Of a DNA stretch of 64,000 nucleotides, positions 2,694 to 64,000 are shown one piece after another (the first letter of the stretch is position 1; the number at the start of each line of letters is the position of its first letter). The DNA comes from Cohnella sp. OV330 (GTDB taxonomy: Bacteria > Bacillota > Bacilli > Paenibacillales > Paenibacillaceae). The notes below the pieces were generated by a model that worked only from the letters and a program-made list of their open reading frames with translations, did no database searches and was not told the origin of the DNA. The stretch spans positions 496,001 to 560,000 of the forward strand of contig NZ_FOKE01000004.1 in NCBI RefSeq assembly GCF_900112065.1, given 5' to 3'. The position numbers were made by a program, and so were the translations under genes.

Positions 2694-3365
2694 TCAGCCT
2701 TTTCGGCCGTAATCCGCCTTGACCTCGCCCCATCGCTCCGTTTCCCACTTGAGCACCTTGTTCGGGTACGTATTGACGCGCAGCCAACTGAGCGCGCGGT
2801 CGACGAGCGCCCAGATCTCGAAGGTCGACTCGTCCCGCGGCAGCGTCGTCACGACTTCTTTTTGCTTTAGCCATTTGAGCGCCGTGCGCGAATCGCTGTA
2901 GATCGTCTTCGCACTTCCCCGCTGCTTCAAATAGGCGAGCGCGTGGACGATCGCCAGAAATTCGCCGAGGTTGTTCGTTCCCTTATCGATCGGTCCGACC
3001 GAAAACAACACGTCGCCCGTTCGCGTATCCACGCCTCTGTATTCGACCGGACCCGGGTTGCCGCGCGTGCCGACGTCCACCGACACGCTGTCGAAGTCGA
3101 TCTCGCCCGCGGCTTGCTCCGGCGACAGCGGCAGCTTCTCTCCCGCTCCCGCGGACCTGGCCGATGCGCCCGAGGCGCTTTTCCCGCCGCCTTGCCCCCA
3201 ATGCTTTTTCCAGCCCTCCCGGTAAGCCCGCTCCGCCTCCGGCTTGCTGCCGTACGATTTGTACTTCGCGTCCTTGCGTCCGGATACTTGGGCTTGGCAT
3301 GCCGGCCACGAGTCGTAAATGCCCGGCGCGCCGCCTTCCCAGACGACATAATATTTTCCCGCCAT
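2694..3365 (-). CDS. rnhA: Ribonuclease HI with N-terminal viroplasmin/hybrid-binding domain
   Basis: Cuts the RNA strand of RNA-DNA hybrids. Residues 1-45 (MAGKYYVVWEGGAPGIYDSWPACQAQVSG) form the caulimovirus-viroplasmin-type hybrid-binding domain; a Gly/Ser/Ala-rich linker follows. The type 1 RNase H domain begins near residue 88, with the acidic residues visible in SVDVGTRGNPGP, NNLGEFLA, IYSDSRTAL and the final VKADYGRK. The start at 3365 is chosen over the upstream ATG because GGAGGGC lies at the right distance and the domain begins exactly there. It is 223 residues long, normal for this two-domain form. It is encoded on the same strand as the solute-binding protein gene but separated from it by about 220 bp that contain that gene's own promoter. 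Confidence 0.9.
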   Translation of the reverse strand: MAGKYYVVWEGGAPGIYDSWPACQAQVSGRKDAKYKSYGSKPEAERAYREGWKKHWGQGGGKSASGASARSAGAGEKLPLSPEQAAGEIDFDSVSVDVGTRGNPGPVEYRGVDTRTGDVLFSVGPIDKGTNNLGEFLAIVHALAYLKQRGSAKTIYSDSRTALKWLKQKEVVTTLPRDESTFEIWALVDRALSWLRVNTYPNKVLKWETERWGEVKADYGRKG

Positions 3366-3444
3366 GTCTTTTTGCCCTCCATGCGCCCGGCGCGCCTTGC
3401 GCGCGGCCCCTCGTTCAAACATTGATTGTAACATATTGTACGCG

Positions 3445-3490
3445 CAAAAAAATCCGTGCCTCCCGGCCCTTTTCGGGGCGGAGGCACGGA
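3445..3490 (-). terminator. Intrinsic terminator after the GH87 gene
   Basis: A perfect 11-bp stem (3453-3463 with 3480-3490, TCCGTGCCTCC and its complement) is followed on the minus strand by seven T residues (3446-3452). It ends the malEFG-GH87 transcript before rnhA. Confidence 0.85.
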
Positions 3491-3515
3491 CAGATTCATG
3501 CGGATCGCTTGTCGG

Positions 3516-6500
3516 TTAAAGCAGCTTCATGCCGACCATCAGTCGCCTGAGGGCAGCCGCGGCCTCGGCGCGCGCGACAGTCGCCTTAGGCGCGAACGTG
3601 CCGTCCGGGCGACCTTGGAGCAGGCCTAGGCGCATCAGCTCCTTGGTCGCCTCGCGCGCCCAGACGCTGATCGAACTCGCGTCAGTGACGTCCGGGAGTG
3701 CGGCCGCAGTGCCCGCGGATGTCTGCGCCTCGGGAGCCAGCTTGAACGCGGCCGCCAGCATGACCGCCATCTGCTCGCGCGTCACCGGCGCCGACGGCGC
3801 AAACCGGCCGCCGCCGATGCCCCGGACCAGCCCGAAGCGGGCCGAGGCTTCCGCATCCGCTGCGAACCAATCGTCGGCTTGGACGTCGGCGAAGGCCTCC
3901 TTGCCCCCCTCGCCTTTCAGACCGAGCGCCCGGACGAGCATCGCGGCGAATTCGGCGCGGCTCACGGCGGCGCTTGGAGAGAACTTGCCCGCGCCCGTCC
4001 CGTTCACGATCCGTTTTGCCGCGAGCAGCTCGATGTCCCCCTTCGCCCAGTGCCCCGCGACATCGCCGAAGGCGCGCGAAGAGGCTGCCAGGACATAAAT
4101 GCTGTTCGTCGTACTGCGGATCGTGACCGTCGTGTTACCGCCCCCGGCTTCGAACAGTGCCGGCACCGGACGGAATGAGCGGCTCTTCGGATCATATACG
4201 AGCGCGGCCGTTCCGGCATCGTTCAGCGTTCCGTGGAGCTTCAAGCTTCTGTCGACGAACACGCTGCCGAAGCCGTCGATCGGCGACTTCGATCCGTCCG
4301 AAGACCAATAGAGCTCGAATGCGTATTGAGCGCCTTCGATTAGCGTCAGACCGTCGATTGCAGCCGCTTCGGCCATGGCGTTTTGGACGTCCGCAGCCGG
4401 CCGCGCGATCGTCAGCAGCAGCTCGCCGTCCCCCGCCTTTTCGGCTAACCACTGCGCGATCAACGCAAGCGACAGCCTGTAGCTTACGTCTCCGGTCTCG
4501 ATCGCGACCGTGCCTCCCGGCACTGCGGCGACCGCCTCTTTGAGCGCGGCGGCGCCGATCGCGACGGCGGCCGATCCGTCCGCCGCGGCATCCGCGCGGA
4601 CGCGAAGGACGGAAGGCTTGCCGGCCAGCATGCCGCGCAGCGCATCGTCCAGGCGCTGGAACGACTCGGGTTTCGGCGTAGCGGGCTCCTTCACGGCGGG
4701 GTTACCCGGCGCATCCGGCGGGACGCTCGCTTCGTCCGGTACGACCTGCGGGTTGCGTCCCGCCGAAGCGTCGCCGCCGGCCGCCTCGCCGGCCGCGAGC
4801 CTGAATTTCTCATCCCCCGCGCCATTGAACTGCCTGCCCAGCTTCGCGCCGCGCACGAGCACGTTCGCCAGCGTGACGCTACCGTTCGCGTCCCCGTTTA
4901 CTTGAAGTCCCCAAGTGCCCGCGCCGTCGATGACCAGGTTTTCGAGCCGCACCTTTCTGCCCGCTTCGGACCGCACGCCTTTGTCGCCGTTTGCGTAGAA
5001 GCCTTGGTACGTACTATCGATCGCCTCGTTGTTGCGGATGACGATGTCCGCGTCGATCGGCTTGTCGCCGGCGAACAGCCAGATCGCGCCGAAGTCCTGT
5101 CCCCAGTTCGGCTCGCGGCCGCCCGTGCGGAGCAGGGTGTTGCGCTCGACGACCGTCGTGCCCGAGAACGGCACCGGATTGAAGCGCGTCGACACCGCGA
5201 TGCCGGCGCCGAAGCCCATCGTATCCGCGATGATGTTGTCGCGGATCGCGTTGTCCTTGCCTCCGAAGACGGCGACGTTATCCGCCAGCGTCGGCAGCTG
5301 GATCGTATTGAAGCGCACGACGTTGCCCTCCGTGCGGGCCAGCTCGTCGCTCGCGCCTTCGCGCGGGTCCGACCACAGCGCGACGGCGTCGTCGCCCGTA
5401 TTGCGGATCGAGCTGTGCTCGAGCGTCGAATGCTTCGTCCCGGTCGAGAAGTGCACGCCGTCCGCATACGTATCCCTGACGCGCAGGCCGCCCAGGTACA
5501 AGCCTTCCGTACCCAGCGACGCGTCGTCGCTAAGCGTCGTCCAAATGCCGGCCTTCGCATGGCGGATCCATACGTGCTGAATCGACGAGCCCTTGCCGTA
5601 AGCGCCGTCGAATCCCGCCTCCGGCAGCGCGTCGCGTCTCGCGTTCACGCCGACGTCGACGGTCAGATCGCGAATGCGGACCCGATCGCCCCGCCCCATG
5701 AAGCCCGCGCCCGTCAGCTTGGTGTGCCACATCCCGGCGCCTGCGATCGTGACGCCGCTCACCTCGAGCGGGCGATCGATCCGGTACGTTCCCGCCGGCA
5801 GCCACAATCCGAACCCTTCGCGGTGCGCGTCGTCGATCGCCGCCTCGAGCGCAGCCGTATCGTCCTTGCCGTCATCGGGCAGGACCCCGTACCGTGCGGC
5901 CGACACGTAGCCGGCCGGCATCTCGAACGGCGCCGGCGCAAGCTCGAGCTCGGCGAAGTCGAGCGTATAGCTGGCGGCCGCGTCTCCTTCGTCCTTGCGC
6001 AGCATGACGGTCGCGCCCGCCGGGATGTCGCCGACGAACTGCTGCGCTTCGTCGTAGAAGCGGTGCGGATCGCCGTCGGCCGGCTGATTGGAATACGGGT
6101 ACTTGCCGTACACCCAGCTGAATTCGGACGTCAGGGTAATCGTCCCTCGCTTTTGTCCGTTCACGTACAAGCTTAACGTAGCGGCCAAGCCCGCGCCGTC
6201 TTCGCTATCCGGCATGCTGTACCGGATATTCAAATAGTTCGCCGCGGCGGACGATTGGAACGACACGTAGTCGCCTGTCGCCGCGAGCGTCACCGCCTGC
6301 CTGCCGGACGATTCGGCGGACAGCGTGCCATATGCCCTGTCGCCCGAGACGAGCTGTCCGTTGGTCGCCATCCGTTCGGCCTCGTACGTCTCGTAAGGCA
6401 CGTCGGCTCCACGCGATGGCGGAGCCGCAGCGCCTCTGACGATCAACGCGTCGACCGCGACGGCGTCCGAGGGTGCGCCTTCGCCCTCCAGCTCGACGCT

Positions 6501-59036: not shown

Positions 59037-59313
59037 GTCTCCGTCAGCGTCTCTTTGCACCAACAGTCGGTCTAATCATGCAAAGTAGTCTTCGTCAGCG
59101 TCTCTTTGCACTAACTGTCGGCCTAATCATGCAAAGTAGTCTCCGTCAGCGTCTCTTTGCACCAACAGTCGGTCTAATCATGCAAAGTAGTCTTCGTCAG
59201 CGTCTCTTCGCACCAACTGTCGGCTTAATCACACAAAGTAGTCTCCGTCAGAATCTCTTCGCACCAACTGTCGACCTAATCACACAAAGTAGTCTCCATC
59301 AGCGTTTCCTTGC
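59037..59313. repeat. Tandem repeat array, 51-bp unit, about 5.4 copies
   Basis: Units begin at 59037, 59088, 59139, 59190, 59241 and (partial) 59292. Each has GTCTYCGTCAGCGTCTCTT, a TTTGCA and a TGCAAA about 25 nt apart. Copies 1-3 are nearly identical, while copies 4, 5 and the partial sixth have drifted, so the array decays to the right. The unit is a multiple of three, so a frame of 17-residue repeats stays open, but it has no ribosome site. The rest of 59027-59467 holds only the terminator at 59406-59451. Confidence 0.9.
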
Positions 59314-59467: not shown

Positions 59468-60802
59468 TTACACCTCAACCGACGCCTTAGCCAACGTATA
59501 ACGGTTGGCCGGGATCGGTACGCCGAGATTGCCGCGAAGCGTGTCTGCTTCGTATTCCGTGCGGTAGATGCCGCGCTCTTGCAGGATCGGCACCACATGC
59601 GCGACGAAGTCGTTCAGGCCGCTCGGGAACGTCGAGTGGATGATGAAACCGTCGGCGGCCTCTTCCTCGTGCCACTGCTGGATCTGGTCCGCGATCCGCT
59701 CCGGCGTGCCGATGAATTGGCCGCGGGGCGTGGCCGCGCGAAGCGCCACTTGGCGGAGCGTGAGCCCCTGCTCGCGCGCGTCCTTCTTGATCTTGTCCGT
59801 GCCGCTGCGGAAGCTGTTGCTGCCGAGGTCGCCGATATCCGGGAACGGCTCGTCAAGCGGGTATTGGGAGAAATCGTGATGCTCGAAAAACCGGCCGAGG
59901 TAATCCAGCGCTTTTTCGATCGATACGAGATTGGCGATCTCCTCGTACTTGCGCTCCGCCTCCTCCTGCGTGCGGCCGATGATCGGCCCGATGCCCGGCA
60001 GGATAACGATGTCGTCGCGCGAACGGCCGAAGGCGACCGCGCGGTCTTTGACGTCTTTGTAAAACGCCTTCGCCTCCTGCAGATTTTCTTGCCCGGTGAA
60101 GACGGCGTCGGCTTCCTTGGCCGCCAGGTTTTTGCCGCTCTCCGAGGATCCTGCCTGGAAGATGACCGGCTGACCCTGTTTCGAACGGGCGACGTTGAGC
60201 GGTCCCTCGACGGAAAAATACTTGCCCTTATGATTCAGCCTGTGCAGCTTGGAAGGATCGAAGAACACGCCGGATGCCTTGTCGCGCACGAACGCGTCGT
60301 CTTCCCACGAATCCCAGAGCCCCTTCGTCACCGCCAAATATTCTTCCGCGATCTGGTAGCGCTCGTCATGAGTCGGATGCTCCGTTTTCCCGTAGTTGCG
60401 CGCGGAGCCTTCGAGCGGAGAGGTCACCACGTTCCAGCCTGCGCGGCCGCCGCTAATCTGGTCGAGCGAGCCGAACTGGCGCGCTACCGTGAACGGCTCG
60501 CTGTAGGACGAGGACAGCGTGCCGACGAGCCCGATCTTCTTCGTGACGGCCGCGAGCGCGGATAGAATCGTAATCGGCTCGAAACGGTTCAGGAAGTGAG
60601 GGATGGACTTTTCGTTGATATAAAGGCCGTCGGCGATAAAGACGAGGTCGAACAGGCCTTCCTCCGCCTTCTGTGCGGCCTGGACGTAGAATGGGAGACT
60701 GACGCTCGCGTCTGACGGAATTTCAGGGTGTCTCCAGGCCGAGATGTTGCCGCCGACGCCGTGGATGATGGCGCCGAATTTCAGCTTTTTGCGTGCGCTC
60801 AT
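59468..60802 (-). CDS. FMN-dependent monooxygenase, NtaA/SnaA/DszA type (LLM class)
   Basis: 444-residue flavin monooxygenase of the bacterial-luciferase superfamily. The N-terminus [79 protein letters not shown] and [27 protein letters not shown] are typical of the nitrilotriacetate/alkanesulfonate-like branch that includes B. subtilis YtnJ/CmoJ and YxeK. It uses FMNH2 supplied by a reductase, which is not encoded here. It is the last gene of the five-gene operon (32 bp after the GNAT gene) with a GGAGG site. The start at 60802 replaces a longer frame without support. Confidence 0.88.
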
Positions 60803-60834
60803 AGTATTGCCTCCTTTAATATGGGGGATCGGGA

Positions 60835-61365
60835 TTATATCTTCAGCAGCGCGGCGTCGTTCAGATGGAGCCGGTAGCTCTTGACGAGGATGTCGCCGTT
60901 GTAAATGTCTTTGTCGAAGGCGCGTTCGAAGCCAAGGCGTTCGTAGAGGCGGACGGCGGAAGCCATGAGGTCGGAGGTGTGAAGGTGCAGCGTATCGCCG
61001 CCGTGCGCCTTGGCGCGAATCGCGGACTCGCGGAGCAGCGCGGTGGCGACGCCTTGGCCGCGGGCTTCGGGGCTCACGGCGATCAGGCGGATGATCGGGG
61101 ATTCGATGCCAAGGTCGCGTCCGTATGCGACGATCGAGGAGTCGAACAACACCGCGCTGCCGACGAGCCTGCCTTCCCATTCGGCCACCAGTCGGGCGAA
61201 CGGTCCGGGTGCGTCGACGGAAGCCGCGATATTGTTTTTGTATTCGATCCAGCGTTCCTCGGGCATCGTGCCCTCGTATTCGCCGTAAGCCGCGAGCAGC
61301 ACTTCCCGGATGGCTTCGCGGTCGCGGTCTTCGGCGTCGCGGACTTGAACGTGAGCTTGCGCCAT
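60835..61365 (-). CDS. GNAT-family N-acetyltransferase
   Basis: 176-residue acetyl-CoA-dependent acetyltransferase: [27 protein letters not shown] is the complete acetyl-CoA-binding motif, and [26 protein letters not shown] the C-terminal motif. In an operon with an M20 deacylase and an NtaA-type monooxygenase it may acetylate the amino group of a modified amino acid, as SnaA/SnaB and YxeL do in Bacillus S-(2-succino)cysteine salvage. It begins 3 bp after the DinB gene. Confidence 0.88.
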
Positions 61366-61368
61366 GCG

Positions 61369-61881
61369 TTAAGCCCCCTCTCGCGCGGCAGCCGACGTCT
61401 CTCGCCCGCTAGCGGCGGCCTCGGCGGCCTTGATCCTGTCGATCTGGCCGAGATGATGCTTCGCATGCGCCGCGAACCCCCGCACGACGTCGGCGAGCGT
61501 CACCCGGTCGCCCTTGGCGTTGATCGCCTCTTTTTCCCAATCCGCGGGAGACAGCCGATGCAGCAGGCGCGCGTTGTAAGCGACCAGCGAGCGGAAGCCC
61601 TCGAGTACGTCGGATGCTTCCGCCTCGTTGCCGTATTGGCCTTCGACCCAAGGGTCTTGGCTAAATGCGGGCAGGCGAACCTGAGAGCCGGACAAAATCT
61701 CGCGAATGCGGAAGGACACGACGATCAGATGGTCCGCCAGATGGACGAGCACTTCGGTGGCGCTCCATTTGCCGGGGCCGGGCTTCCAGGTCAGCGCGGA
61801 TACGTCCAATCCGCGGACGGCGTCCGTCAGCCAATCGTAAGTATTCGAAAACGCGTCGATATCGGCGTTATGATTGCTCAT
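61369..61881 (-). CDS. DinB-fold protein
   Basis: 170-residue four-helix-bundle protein. The N-terminal [43 protein letters not shown] with its His, and the closing [16 protein letters not shown] with a second His pair, are the metal-binding His pattern of DinB/YfiT proteins. Some relatives transfer bacillithiol or mycothiol to electrophiles or are metal-dependent hydrolases. It sits between the oxidase and acetyltransferase genes with gaps of 14 and 3 bp, so it is part of the same pathway unit. Confidence 0.83.
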
Positions 61882-61895
61882 TCAATACGACCTCC

Positions 61896-63059
61896 TTATG
61901 GGGTTGAAACGGCGGTTGCCGACGGGAAACGGGAGAGCGAGAACGGCAGAAGGTCTTGCGGGGGAATGCCGGATTCGGTCCACTCGGCCAAAGCCTCGCC
62001 GTTCGCGCTCGCGAACTTGAAGCCGTGGCCCGAGAAGCCGCCGGCAAGAAGTACGCCGGGAAGCTCCGGATGAGCGTCGATGATGAACTGGTCGTCCGGG
62101 GACAGCTCGTATTTGCATGCCGCGCCGTGGATCAGGCGGCCTTCGGCGCCGGGGAGAAATTCCCGGAGCGCCGTCCGCAGGTCGGCTTCGTCCTCCGGAT
62201 ACGCGCCGAAGGGCTCGAAGCGTTCGCCGGGCTGCCAGGGACGGCCGCCGTCGTGGCGGCCGATCTTGACGCCGGCGCCGCCGATGCTCGGGAAGCCGTA
62301 GTAGCCGCCCGAAGGTCCGCCGAACGTGAAGCCGGGCAGATGACCTGCTCCGTAGAACCGCTCGTCGGCTTCGAACCAGCCGACGACCTTGCGGACCGCC
62401 CGGACCGGCAGCTTCACGCTCGGTTCCAGCGATTTGAACCATGCGCCTGCGGTGACGATCGCCTTGCCGGCCGCGAATTCGCCGCGGCTCGTTTTAACCG
62501 TAAGACCGCCGCCGCGTCGCGCTTCGATGCCAAGGACGGCCGTTTCCGTCAGCAGCTCCGCGCCCGCCGTCAACGCTTCGCGCCGATACGCGGCAACGCA
62601 GCGCTCGCTGTACAAATAGCCGGCGTCCGGCTCGTACAGCCCGCGGTAGTGCGCCGGCACGTTCCATCCCGGCCATCTCCGCGTTATCTCCGGCGCGTCC
62701 AGCGACTCATAGCGAACGCCCTCGCGATCGGCGTCGGCGAAACGGCCGTCGTATGCGTAGGCGTCCGGATCGCTCACGTTCAGGACGCCCGACCGTTCGA
62801 GCAGCCGTTCGCCCGTCCGGTCCTCCAGCTCCCGCCAGAGCGCGTCGGAACGAAGCGCAAGCCTGACATAATGCGGGCCTCCGTGATACACATGACGGAT
62901 CAGCCGGGGTTCGCCATGATGGCTTCCGCCCGTGTGGGGCGGATCGAACGCGTCGATGAGGAGCGTCTTCAGGCCGCGAGCGGCTAGATGATAGCCGGCG
63001 CTCATTCCCATCGAGCCGGCGCCGACGACGATGACGTCGTATACGCGAACGCCGCTCAT
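61896..63059 (-). CDS. MSOX/MTOX-like FAD amine oxidase
   Basis: 387-residue flavoprotein of the monomeric sarcosine oxidase/N-methyltryptophan oxidase family. The FAD motif is VIVVGAGSMGMSAGYHLAARGLKTLLIDAFDP; GGSHHGEPRLIRHVYH follows as usual. Cys315 (GAACKYELSPDDQFIID) is at the same number as the Cys that binds FAD covalently in sarcosine oxidase. It oxidises N-substituted amino acids and releases an aldehyde plus peroxide in known members. Its ATG overlaps the stop of the M20 gene (ATGA), so the two are coupled. Confidence 0.88.
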   Translation of the reverse strand: MSGVRVYDVIVVGAGSMGMSAGYHLAARGLKTLLIDAFDPPHTGGSHHGEPRLIRHVYHGGPHYVRLALRSDALWRELEDRTGERLLERSGVLNVSDPDAYAYDGRFADADREGVRYESLDAPEITRRWPGWNVPAHYRGLYEPDAGYLYSERCVAAYRREALTAGAELLTETAVLGIEARRGGGLTVKTSRGEFAAGKAIVTAGAWFKSLEPSVKLPVRAVRKVVGWFEADERFYGAGHLPGFTFGGPSGGYYGFPSIGGAGVKIGRHDGGRPWQPGERFEPFGAYPEDEADLRTALREFLPGAEGRLIHGAACKYELSPDDQFIIDAHPELPGVLLAGGFSGHGFKFASANGEALAEWTESGIPPQDLLPFSLSRFPSATAVSTP

Positions 63060-64000
63060 GCCCGCGTCACCGCTTCGGCATGCGCCTCATCCGGCTCGGA
63101 TCCGGCAGACTTTTCGCCGGACAGTTCCGCCAGCGCTTGAAGCGCCACGGACGCGAGATAGGCGGCGGCGTGCGGAAGCGCGGACTCGTCGACGTCGAAG
63201 GCGGGATGATGCCATTCGCGCGGACCGTTCGTGCCCAGAAAGACGAAAGCGCCCGGCGCTTCCTTCAGGTAAAGCGCGAAGTCCTCGCCCGCCGGCGAAG
63301 GCTTCGGCTCCACGACCGCGAGTCCCGCCCGCTTGGCGGCTATCGCCGCCGAATGCGCCCAGCGCGGGTCGTTGACGACCGGCGGCGGCCCGCCGGTCCA
63401 GCGCGTGCGCGCCGTCGTGCCGAAGGCGGCCGCCACGCCGTCCACCACCTGCTCGAAGCGGCGGCGCACCTCGGCGCGGACGCCTTCGTCGAAGGTGCGG
63501 ATCGTCCCGTCGAAGATCGCCTTTTCGGGTATGACGTTCCAGGACGTACCGGCGCTGAGCCGGGTGACGCTGACGACGGCGCTGTCGAGCGAGCTGACGT
63601 TGCGGCTGACGATGCTCTGCAGCGCCGTCAGCATGTGCGCGGCCGTAATGAGCGGATCAAGCCCCGCCTCCGGCACCGCGGCATGCGTCCCCTTCCCGTC
63701 GACTTCGACCGCGAAGCCGTCCGCGGCGGCCATGATCGGGCCGGACCGGATGCCGATCGTCCCGACCGGCAGATCCGGTTTGTTGTGCAGGCCGAACACC
63801 GCGGCCACGCCAGACAGCGCGCCGCTCTCGATCACTTGCGCGGCGCCCTTCGCCTTTTCCTCCGCCGGCTGGAACAGCAGGCGCACCGTGCCGGGCAGCT
63901 CCGCTTCCCGGCGCTTCAGCAGCACGGCCGCGCCGATGAGCGCCGCCGTATGAAAATCGTGTCCGCACGCATGCATCGCGCCCGGCCGCCGCGAGGCGAA
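63056..64000 (-). CDS. M20-family amidohydrolase, 5' end beyond the window
   Basis: Metal-dependent N-acyl-amino-acid hydrolase; the visible 314 codons enter from the right edge in frame (FASRRPGAMHACGHDFHTA). Metal ligands seen are the Cys and His of HACGHDFH, Glu in LLFQPAEEKAKGA, and His in LHNKPDLPVG; the dimerisation domain (DGKGTHAAVPEAGLDPLITAAHML) and the final SPAGEDFALYLKEAPGAFVFLG are present. These enzymes (for example YtnL/SndA, YxeP, hippurate hydrolases) remove N-acetyl groups. It is the first visible gene of the operon; more genes may lie upstream. Confidence 0.9.
   Translation of the reverse strand, partial: FASRRPGAMHACGHDFHTAALIGAAVLLKRREAELPGTVRLLFQPAEEKAKGAAQVIESGALSGVAAVFGLHNKPDLPVGTIGIRSGPIMAAADGFAVEVDGKGTHAAVPEAGLDPLITAAHMLTALQSIVSRNVSSLDSAVVSVTRLSAGTSWNVIPEKAIFDGTIRTFDEGVRAEVRRRFEQVVDGVAAAFGTTARTRWTGGPPPVVNDPRWAHSAAIAAKRAGLAVVEPKPSPAGEDFALYLKEAPGAFVFLGTNGPREWHHPAFDVDESALPHAAAYLASVALQALAELSGEKSAGSEPDEAHAEAVTRA

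Follow-up and report, generated by a model that had tools for sequence, protein, structure and literature searches.

The right-hand end of the 64,000-nucleotide stretch of Cohnella sp. OV330 DNA analyzed here (the window; contig NZ_FOKE01000004.1, numbered contig 15 of the genome, positions 496,001 to 560,000) carries five minus-strand genes, which make up the 3′ half of an 11-gene operon. In the direction of transcription, the operon encodes a LysR regulator, a family-3 solute-binding protein (SBP), two permeases, an ATPase, an MsnO8-family monooxygenase, an M20 amidohydrolase, a sarcosine-oxidase-like amine oxidase (SOX), a DinB-fold protein (DinB), a GNAT N-acetyltransferase, and a CmoJ-type monooxygenase (Table 1). 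Six of these genes, up to the one for LysR, lie past the right edge of the window, as do the first 264 bases of the M20 gene; coordinates past the edge were read from a 20-kb stretch (L006) in which each position equals the window position minus 59000. A first-pass annotation, made from the letters of the window, had described five tightly packed genes with an ATGA overlap between M20 and SOX, gaps of 14, 3, and 32 bp, and a single strong terminator. The five genes are open at the claimed places, the spacing is exact, and the family assignments agree (TIGR03860, GNAT, DinB_2, DAO, and M20). The terminator is likewise supported, as it lies in a 71-base stretch with a folding energy of -37.3 kcal/mol (z = -5.5) that none of 200 shuffles equals; a simple consensus scan does not list it. 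Known Rfam elements are absent from L006 at gathering thresholds.

Table 1. Features of the operon in window coordinates; positions above 64000 are beyond the window edge.
Feature	Position	Strand	Length	Family or remark
CmoJ (YtnJ)-type NtaA/DmoA-family FMN-dependent monooxygenase	59468..60802	(-)	444 aa	TIGR03860
GNAT N-acetyltransferase	60835..61365	(-)	176 aa	Pfam PF00583
DinB-fold YfiT/BstA-like protein (DinB)	61369..61881	(-)	170 aa	PF12867 (DinB_2); H47/H139/H143, no Cys
Sarcosine-oxidase/N-methyltryptophan-oxidase-like amine oxidase (SOX)	61896..63059	(-)	387 aa	DAO; NF008425; covalent-FAD cysteine
M20 amidohydrolase, N-acetylcysteine-deacetylase type by homology	63056..64000, start at window-equivalent 64264	(-)	402 aa	TIGR01891
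Rho-independent terminator, operon 3′ end	about 59452-59405	(-)		Stem then T run
MsnO8-family (CmoO-type) monooxygenase	64335-65354	(-)		TIGR03558
TcyN-like ATPase	65375-66127	(-)
Two permeases	66124-66834, 66831-67613	(-)
Family-3 solute-binding protein (SBP)	67635-68573	(-)
LysR regulator	68725-69630	(-)

Judged by sequence and gene order, the operon is very probably the Paenibacillaceae version of Cmo-type cysteine salvage. In the published account of this route, S-alkylcysteine is acetylated, sulfoxidized by CmoO, and then split at the C-S bond by CmoJ, which yields an aldehyde and a sulfenic acid; reduction and deacetylation follow (PMC10863075). In Bacillus subtilis, three M20 enzymes deacetylate N-acetylcysteine (PMC12757645). 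The last gene product of the Cohnella operon scores 571 bits against TIGR03860 (cut-off 279.7), and its best solved structure is YtnJ (1yw1/6ask; 621.8 bits over residues 7-437). The MsnO8-family monooxygenase reaches 348.4 bits against TIGR03558 (cut-off 166.95), CmoO being a member of this family by our assumption, and the full-length M20 protein reaches 392.5 bits against TIGR01891. At the family level, the GNAT, M20 deacylase, polar amino-acid importer, and LysR regulator of the Cmo operon type are all present. By homology, the GNAT would acetylate the amine of an S-alkylated cysteine taken up by the amino-acid ABC importer, the CmoO-type enzyme would form the sulfoxide, CmoJ would cut the C-S bond to yield N-acetylcysteine sulfenic acid and an aldehyde, and the M20 enzyme would take off the acetyl group, freeing cysteine. 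The acetyltransferase, monooxygenase, and deacylase core recognized in the first-pass annotation is thus borne out, as are its kinship to the ytmI operon, with a YtnJ/CmoJ-like enzyme as the last gene product, and the ABC importer predicted to the right of the window.

The only step of the pathway for which the operon holds no recognizable candidate gene is the reduction of the sulfenic acid. The available passages of the published account name no enzyme for this reduction, and the terms CmoI, glutaredoxin, and bacillithiol are absent from its text (PMC10863075). The Cmo (ytmI/ytn) operon of B. subtilis has in common with that of Cohnella a LysR regulator, a TcyJKLMN-type importer, MsnO8-family (presumably CmoO-type) and CmoJ-type monooxygenases, a GNAT, and an M20 enzyme. 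Unlike the B. subtilis operon, the Cohnella operon has DinB in place of the CmoI-type glutaredoxin (CmoI being the name for YtnI), together with SOX. The operon is classed as a variant and not as the B. subtilis type itself because DinB is present where a CmoI-type glutaredoxin would be expected; the genome as a whole (G000) contains no CmoI-type glutaredoxin at E <= 1e-7. The same genome encodes four further NtaA-family monooxygenases at E <= 1e-120 among the matches listed, two each on contigs 5 and 22 (L133, L134), and one of these lies next to genes for an M20 enzyme and a dipeptide-type ABC importer (L133).

The distribution of these genes was followed by searching 118 Paenibacillaceae genomes with SOX, the CmoJ-type enzyme, and DinB. 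The CmoJ-type search gave at least 150 matches, of which the 127 with E <= 1.9e-136 were used and 23 weaker ones listed were dropped; restricted to the CmoJ-like group, these define 112 CmoJ-type clusters contributed by 73 genomes. Genes are counted as near one another when they lie within 8 kb on the same strand, a count that leaves out the monooxygenase of G035 (L120), which adjoins SOX and CmoI but is absent from the matches used. In addition, 106 loci with a core match were mapped and merged to 100, from which 54 complete non-overlapping operons were drawn; the loci were partly picked for holding DinB, SOX, or the monooxygenase, so that proportions among them describe this selection only. 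In these gene maps, the recurring order is LysR-SBP-permease-permease-ATPase-CmoO-M20-[SOX]-DinB-[GNAT]-CmoJ, where brackets mark genes that may be missing from the position; the GNAT gene occupies the same slot in relatives or, in many genomes, lies divergently upstream of LysR. The same gene order in other Paenibacillaceae genomes rules out a strain-specific or chance assembly of genes. The conservation anticipated by the first-pass annotation is hence found, both beyond this strain and in off-window neighbors that belong to the same pathway. Four named relatives with 86-90% identical SOX are Cohnella records. A flavin reductase, which monooxygenases of this kind require and which was also expected to the right of the window, is not seen in this operon; a gene for an NADPH-dependent FMN reductase is present in or near 11 of the 54 related operons (L075, L076, L086, L170, L173, and others).

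The observation that bears most directly on the missing step is that DinB and CmoI exclude each other. Two Paenibacillus loci without DinB (L168, L171) carry a small glutaredoxin upstream (Pfam PF00462 in L168), which was used as the CmoI query; in L168 this gene adjoins a CmoJ-type gene that is truncated where the stretch ends. Among the 112 CmoJ-type clusters, DinB is near in 49, CmoI in 21, neither in 42, and both in none. In the 54 complete operons, the corresponding numbers are 46 with DinB, six with CmoI, two with neither, and none with both. The named loci, which were retrieved by SOX alone, include 26 complete operons, of which 21 have DinB, four have CmoI, and one has neither. DinB and CmoI do not occur together in any of the 106 mapped loci. 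A class-wide search of 299 genomes found CmoI in 34; of the 30 CmoI loci read, none has DinB within 1.5 kb, while 24 have a CmoJ-like gene within that distance (15/15 inside the family and 9/15 outside). Within the family, 21 of 26 CmoI matches are near a CmoJ-type match, and the other five comprise G035, where a monooxygenase is seen in L120, G014, and three weak matches. SOX shows no such exclusion: the complete operons contain SOX and DinB in 31 cases, DinB only in 15, SOX and CmoI in five, CmoI only in one, SOX only in one (L181), and none of the three in one (L127). Since SOX occurs with either partner, the exclusion is specific to the DinB-CmoI pair rather than general to accessory genes. 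Both Paenibacillus CmoI-type loci have a further gene of equal length and place (2852-4279) between LysR and the importer, which belongs to the sodium:alanine symporter family in L168 (Pfam) and is an open frame in L171.

DinB itself is closely associated with this type of cluster. The 58 matches in the 118 genomes comprise 55 close ones (>=45% identity) and three weak ones (32-36% identity), and 49 of the 58 are near a CmoJ-type gene, 22 of these 49 being also near SOX. The six close matches with no CmoJ-type gene nearby each have importer, M20, GNAT, or CmoO-type neighbors. L259 and L260 combine importer permeases, a CmoO-type gene, DinB, and GNAT; the DinB gene of L111 has no such neighbors other than a dipeptide-type importer and a CmoO relative at 28% identity; and L084, L085, and L112, all from one genus, hold a GNAT2-type acetyltransferase, an importer, M20, and DinB with no monooxygenase nearby, a CmoJ-type gene being located elsewhere in the genome. 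In other families of Bacilli, all six close DinB homologs are beside a monooxygenase or M20 gene, in L137 and L145 only a 26-31% identical CmoO relative, and the eight more distant DinB loci read there (<=36% identity) are not beside such a gene.

As for its structure, DinB has the four-helix fold and the three conserved histidines of the STL/DinB-superfamily bacillithiol transferases. The single sequence as query matched no solved structure, and a profile of 23 sequences matches YfiT (E = 2.6e-10) and BH0186 (6.9e-12). A Foldseek search with a structure model (pLDDT 87.6) places YfiT (1rxq) first at a TM-score of 0.79, followed by BH0186, mycothiol-dependent maleylpyruvate isomerase, and mycothiol S-transferase, in agreement with the bacillithiol-transferase-like fold suggested by the first-pass annotation. 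The invariant H47, H139, and H143 align with H67, H160, and H164 of YfiT, the sole residues common to the eight bacillithiol transferases of B. subtilis (PMC5815605). These transferases need a metal and are active on a model electrophile; their natural substrates are stated to be unknown, and a strain lacking all eight is described as having no clear phenotype (PMC5815605). Bacillithiol itself is probably available to the host, as the bacillithiol gene bshC is matched in all 118 genomes, in 117 of them over the cut-off, including G000. DinB of the window contains no cysteine, and no alignment column holds cysteine in more than two of 36 rows. Thus, DinB cannot reduce a sulfenic acid by a thiol of its own, which makes a metal-activated external thiol the natural reading. 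It is proposed, at about even odds, that DinB takes over the role of CmoI, with metal-bound bacillithiol serving to reduce the N-acetylcysteine sulfenic acid that CmoJ forms. DinB would activate bacillithiol at its three-histidine metal site, the thiolate would attack the sulfenic sulfur to form a bacillithiol-N-acetylcysteine disulfide, and a cellular bacilliredoxin or other thiol would resolve this disulfide. The first-pass annotation had instead offered a bacillithiol adduct as the substrate being salvaged; this is not specifically supported, as the exclusion between DinB and the glutaredoxin points to the handling of a pathway intermediate.

The second addition to the Cmo core, SOX, passes the cut-off of the N-methyl-L-tryptophan oxidase model NF008425 (412.4 bits, cut-off 257), the name of which is no proof of substrate, and does not reach that of sarcosine oxidase TIGR01377 (314.2 vs. 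479.65). The cysteine at position 315, which had been reported as intact, is in register with that of monomeric sarcosine oxidase, and R52, R55, Y58, Y254, K265, H269, C315, Y317, and K348 are kept in 28 of 28 aligned rows. Lys265 and Cys315 are assumed to have the same roles as in the characterized enzymes. The carboxylate-binding Arg, Tyr, and Lys and the active-site Tyr254 and His269 are thereby shared with monomeric sarcosine oxidase and N-methyl-L-tryptophan oxidase (PMC12582975). At position 245, monomeric sarcosine oxidase has Met, whereas SOX has Thr (27 of 28 rows), as does N-methyltryptophan oxidase, where Thr favors the bulkier substrate: its replacement by Met increased activity on sarcosine and decreased that on methyltryptophan (PMC12582975). 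Position 103, equivalent to Phe100 of the Bacillus enzyme, varies (Tyr in seven, Phe in 15, and Leu in six of 28) and is little informative.

SOX is set apart from these oxidases by its genomic linkage to M20 and other genes of cysteine salvage. In 34 of the 46 named loci retrieved by SOX alone, its gene comes right after that of M20; of the remaining 12, four are in other importer/CmoO-type clusters (L180, L188, L193, L194) and eight are not. SOX also occurs in two scm-type clusters that both hold an MmgE/PrpD gene, M20, and GNAT, one with a 2SL-type lyase (L123, Lyase_1/ADSL_C) and the other (L125) running off its contig on the side where the lyase would lie, with a TMEM164-family gene next to SOX. 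Minimal CmoO-M20-SOX sets are present in L119/L186 and L191, and a locus from another family has the order GNAT-SBP-permease-ATPase-SOX (L257). Relatives of SOX are found near sugar-type ABC transporter genes as well (L116, L118, L121, L122, L124, L197), with a further gene in L197 that by eye resembles a Gfo/Idh-type dehydrogenase. Acetylation-first pathways need a free amine, so that the contexts of SOX suit an amine oxidase able to open a cyclic or N-substituted S-alkylcysteine; for the same reason, SOX probably strips an N-substituent. An N-substituted derivative of cysteine as the SOX substrate in this pathway is given slightly less than even odds. SOX would oxidize the C-N bond in a substrate or product that is a secondary amine, candidates being N-methyl or N-alkyl S-substituted cysteine, cyclic S-alkylcysteine (such as cycloalliin), and a cysteine-aldehyde thiazolidine, and would release free or N-acylated cysteine usable by GNAT or M20. 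N-methylated cysteine exists in nature, as N-methyl-bacillithiol attests (PMC6336425). The earlier suggestion of a modified amino acid carrying both N- and S-substituents thus survives as the best reading of SOX.

Several other explanations account for part of these observations. It is very improbable that the cluster is a 2-succinocysteine (scm/yxe) operon, the YxeK-type kinship also raised by the first-pass annotation. The Scm (yxe) cluster and its 2SL variant likewise proceed by acetylation, C-S cleavage, and deacetylation (PMC12757645), and SOX is found in L123 and L125, which have one permease compared to two here. However, L006 has no match to the 2SL lyase or to ScmQ (MmgE/PrpD), the sequence of ScmK being outside the comparison. 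The solved structure nearest to the monooxygenase is that of YtnJ, and the operon also encodes an MsnO8-family partner, so that it is of the CmoJ/CmoO type instead. A reading in which DinB works upstream is unlikely: DinB would conjugate electrophiles to bacillithiol, and a conjugate amidase would yield an S-alkylcysteine that is then degraded by the operon, as in mercapturic-type detoxification. The metal requirement and activity of bacillithiol transferases and the conjugate-amidase-plus-GNAT route discussed for them agree with this (PMC5815605), as does the occurrence of importer, M20, and DinB with no monooxygenase in L084, L085, and L112. Yet a glutaredoxin is not expected to replace a conjugating enzyme, an importer would be needless for an internal route, and the window operon has no spare amidase gene besides M20.

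With regard to SOX, a role on the product side is rather doubtful, if somewhat less so than the upstream role of DinB. Cysteine would react with the CmoJ aldehyde to form thiazolidine-4-carboxylate, SOX would oxidize this to a thiazoline that gives rise to an N-acylcysteine, and M20 would deacylate the latter. This accords with the frequent adjacency of M20 and SOX, with the release of an aldehyde by CmoJ (PMC10863075), and with the oxidation of L-thioproline by Bacillus sarcosine oxidase, in which the ligand sulfur lies 3.86 A from Met245, the position of Thr here (PMC12582975). On the other hand, the wild-type enzyme acts on L-thioproline at 0.17% of its efficiency with sarcosine, with Tyr254, invariant in SOX, in the way (PMC12582975), and 2SL-type cleavage produces fumarate and no aldehyde (PMC9706529), yet L123 contains SOX. 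It is also improbable that SOX and DinB are loosely linked passengers on the Cmo transcript with no step in the pathway, namely a general oxidase of sarcosine or N-methyl amino acids and a generic stress DinB. This would fit the SOX homologs that stand alone or near sugar-type ABC genes rather than in such clusters, as well as the 11 changes in SOX presence that the operon tree requires. Against it, 49 of the 55 close DinB matches are near a CmoJ-type gene and the other six have related neighbors, and SOX recurs in several different cysteine-salvage-type contexts.

Cmo-type salvage with DinB in the place of CmoI and a step for SOX remains the favored explanation, and as a whole it is evenly poised between right and wrong. 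Several findings weigh against it. The operon tree needs only two DinB/CmoI swaps, so that the exclusion may partly reflect ancestry, and a phylogenetic sign test of the swap has two independent pairs and thus no power. The clusters and complete operons with neither gene (42/112; 2/54, L127 and L181) imply that some have no gene for a dedicated reductant close by, and six of 15 CmoI loci outside the family have no strong CmoJ-like neighbor. DinB differs from the YfiT/BstA transferases in being tied to one pathway and falls under the YfiT equivalog cut-off (NF009807, 47.9 vs. 160). The DinB clusters of L084, L085, and L112 fit the replacement of CmoI only if the CmoJ-type gene elsewhere in the genome supplies the substrate. 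For SOX, the 11 gains or losses on the tree and the 30 of 56 matches in the 118 genomes that are not near a listed CmoJ-type gene (one of the 30, in G035, does have one) mark it as accessory. L257 is the only linked SOX outside Paenibacillaceae among the loci read, and Tyr254, kept in every SOX row, is an obstacle to cyclic imino acids in Bacillus sarcosine oxidase (PMC12582975). A tree of 28 SOX proteins has too little resolution to show where SOX entered the operon.

A 51-base unit is repeated in tandem shortly past the terminator, on its downstream side (window 59037-59313; 5.4 copies, 88% match). One frame is open throughout the array, and a search of the Cohnella genome with two units returns this site only.

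The first-pass annotation knew of no described pathway with this gene set. This does not hold for the core, which is covered by the described Cmo pathway; for the additions, no description of SOX or DinB in such operons was found in an open-access library, which lacks most subscription papers. The operon is proposed to be a conserved variant of a known pathway, with a non-homologous replacement of CmoI by DinB and the recurrent addition of an amine oxidase. Its most specific form, in which DinB is a metal-dependent bacillithiol enzyme that resolves free N-acetylcysteine sulfenic acid and SOX strips an N-substituent to admit cysteines modified on both N and S, is offered tentatively and is less probable than either part. 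If true, a single-domain protein of the bacillithiol-transferase type would gain a natural substrate, none having been known in B. subtilis according to PMC5815605. The exchange of DinB and glutaredoxin ties together two open points, the substrates of bacillithiol transferases and the reductant of the sulfenic acid, and points to one concrete candidate substrate. The proposed role of SOX would likewise suggest how organisms might recover cysteine from forms modified at N in addition to S, which should otherwise be unusable by acetylation-first pathways.

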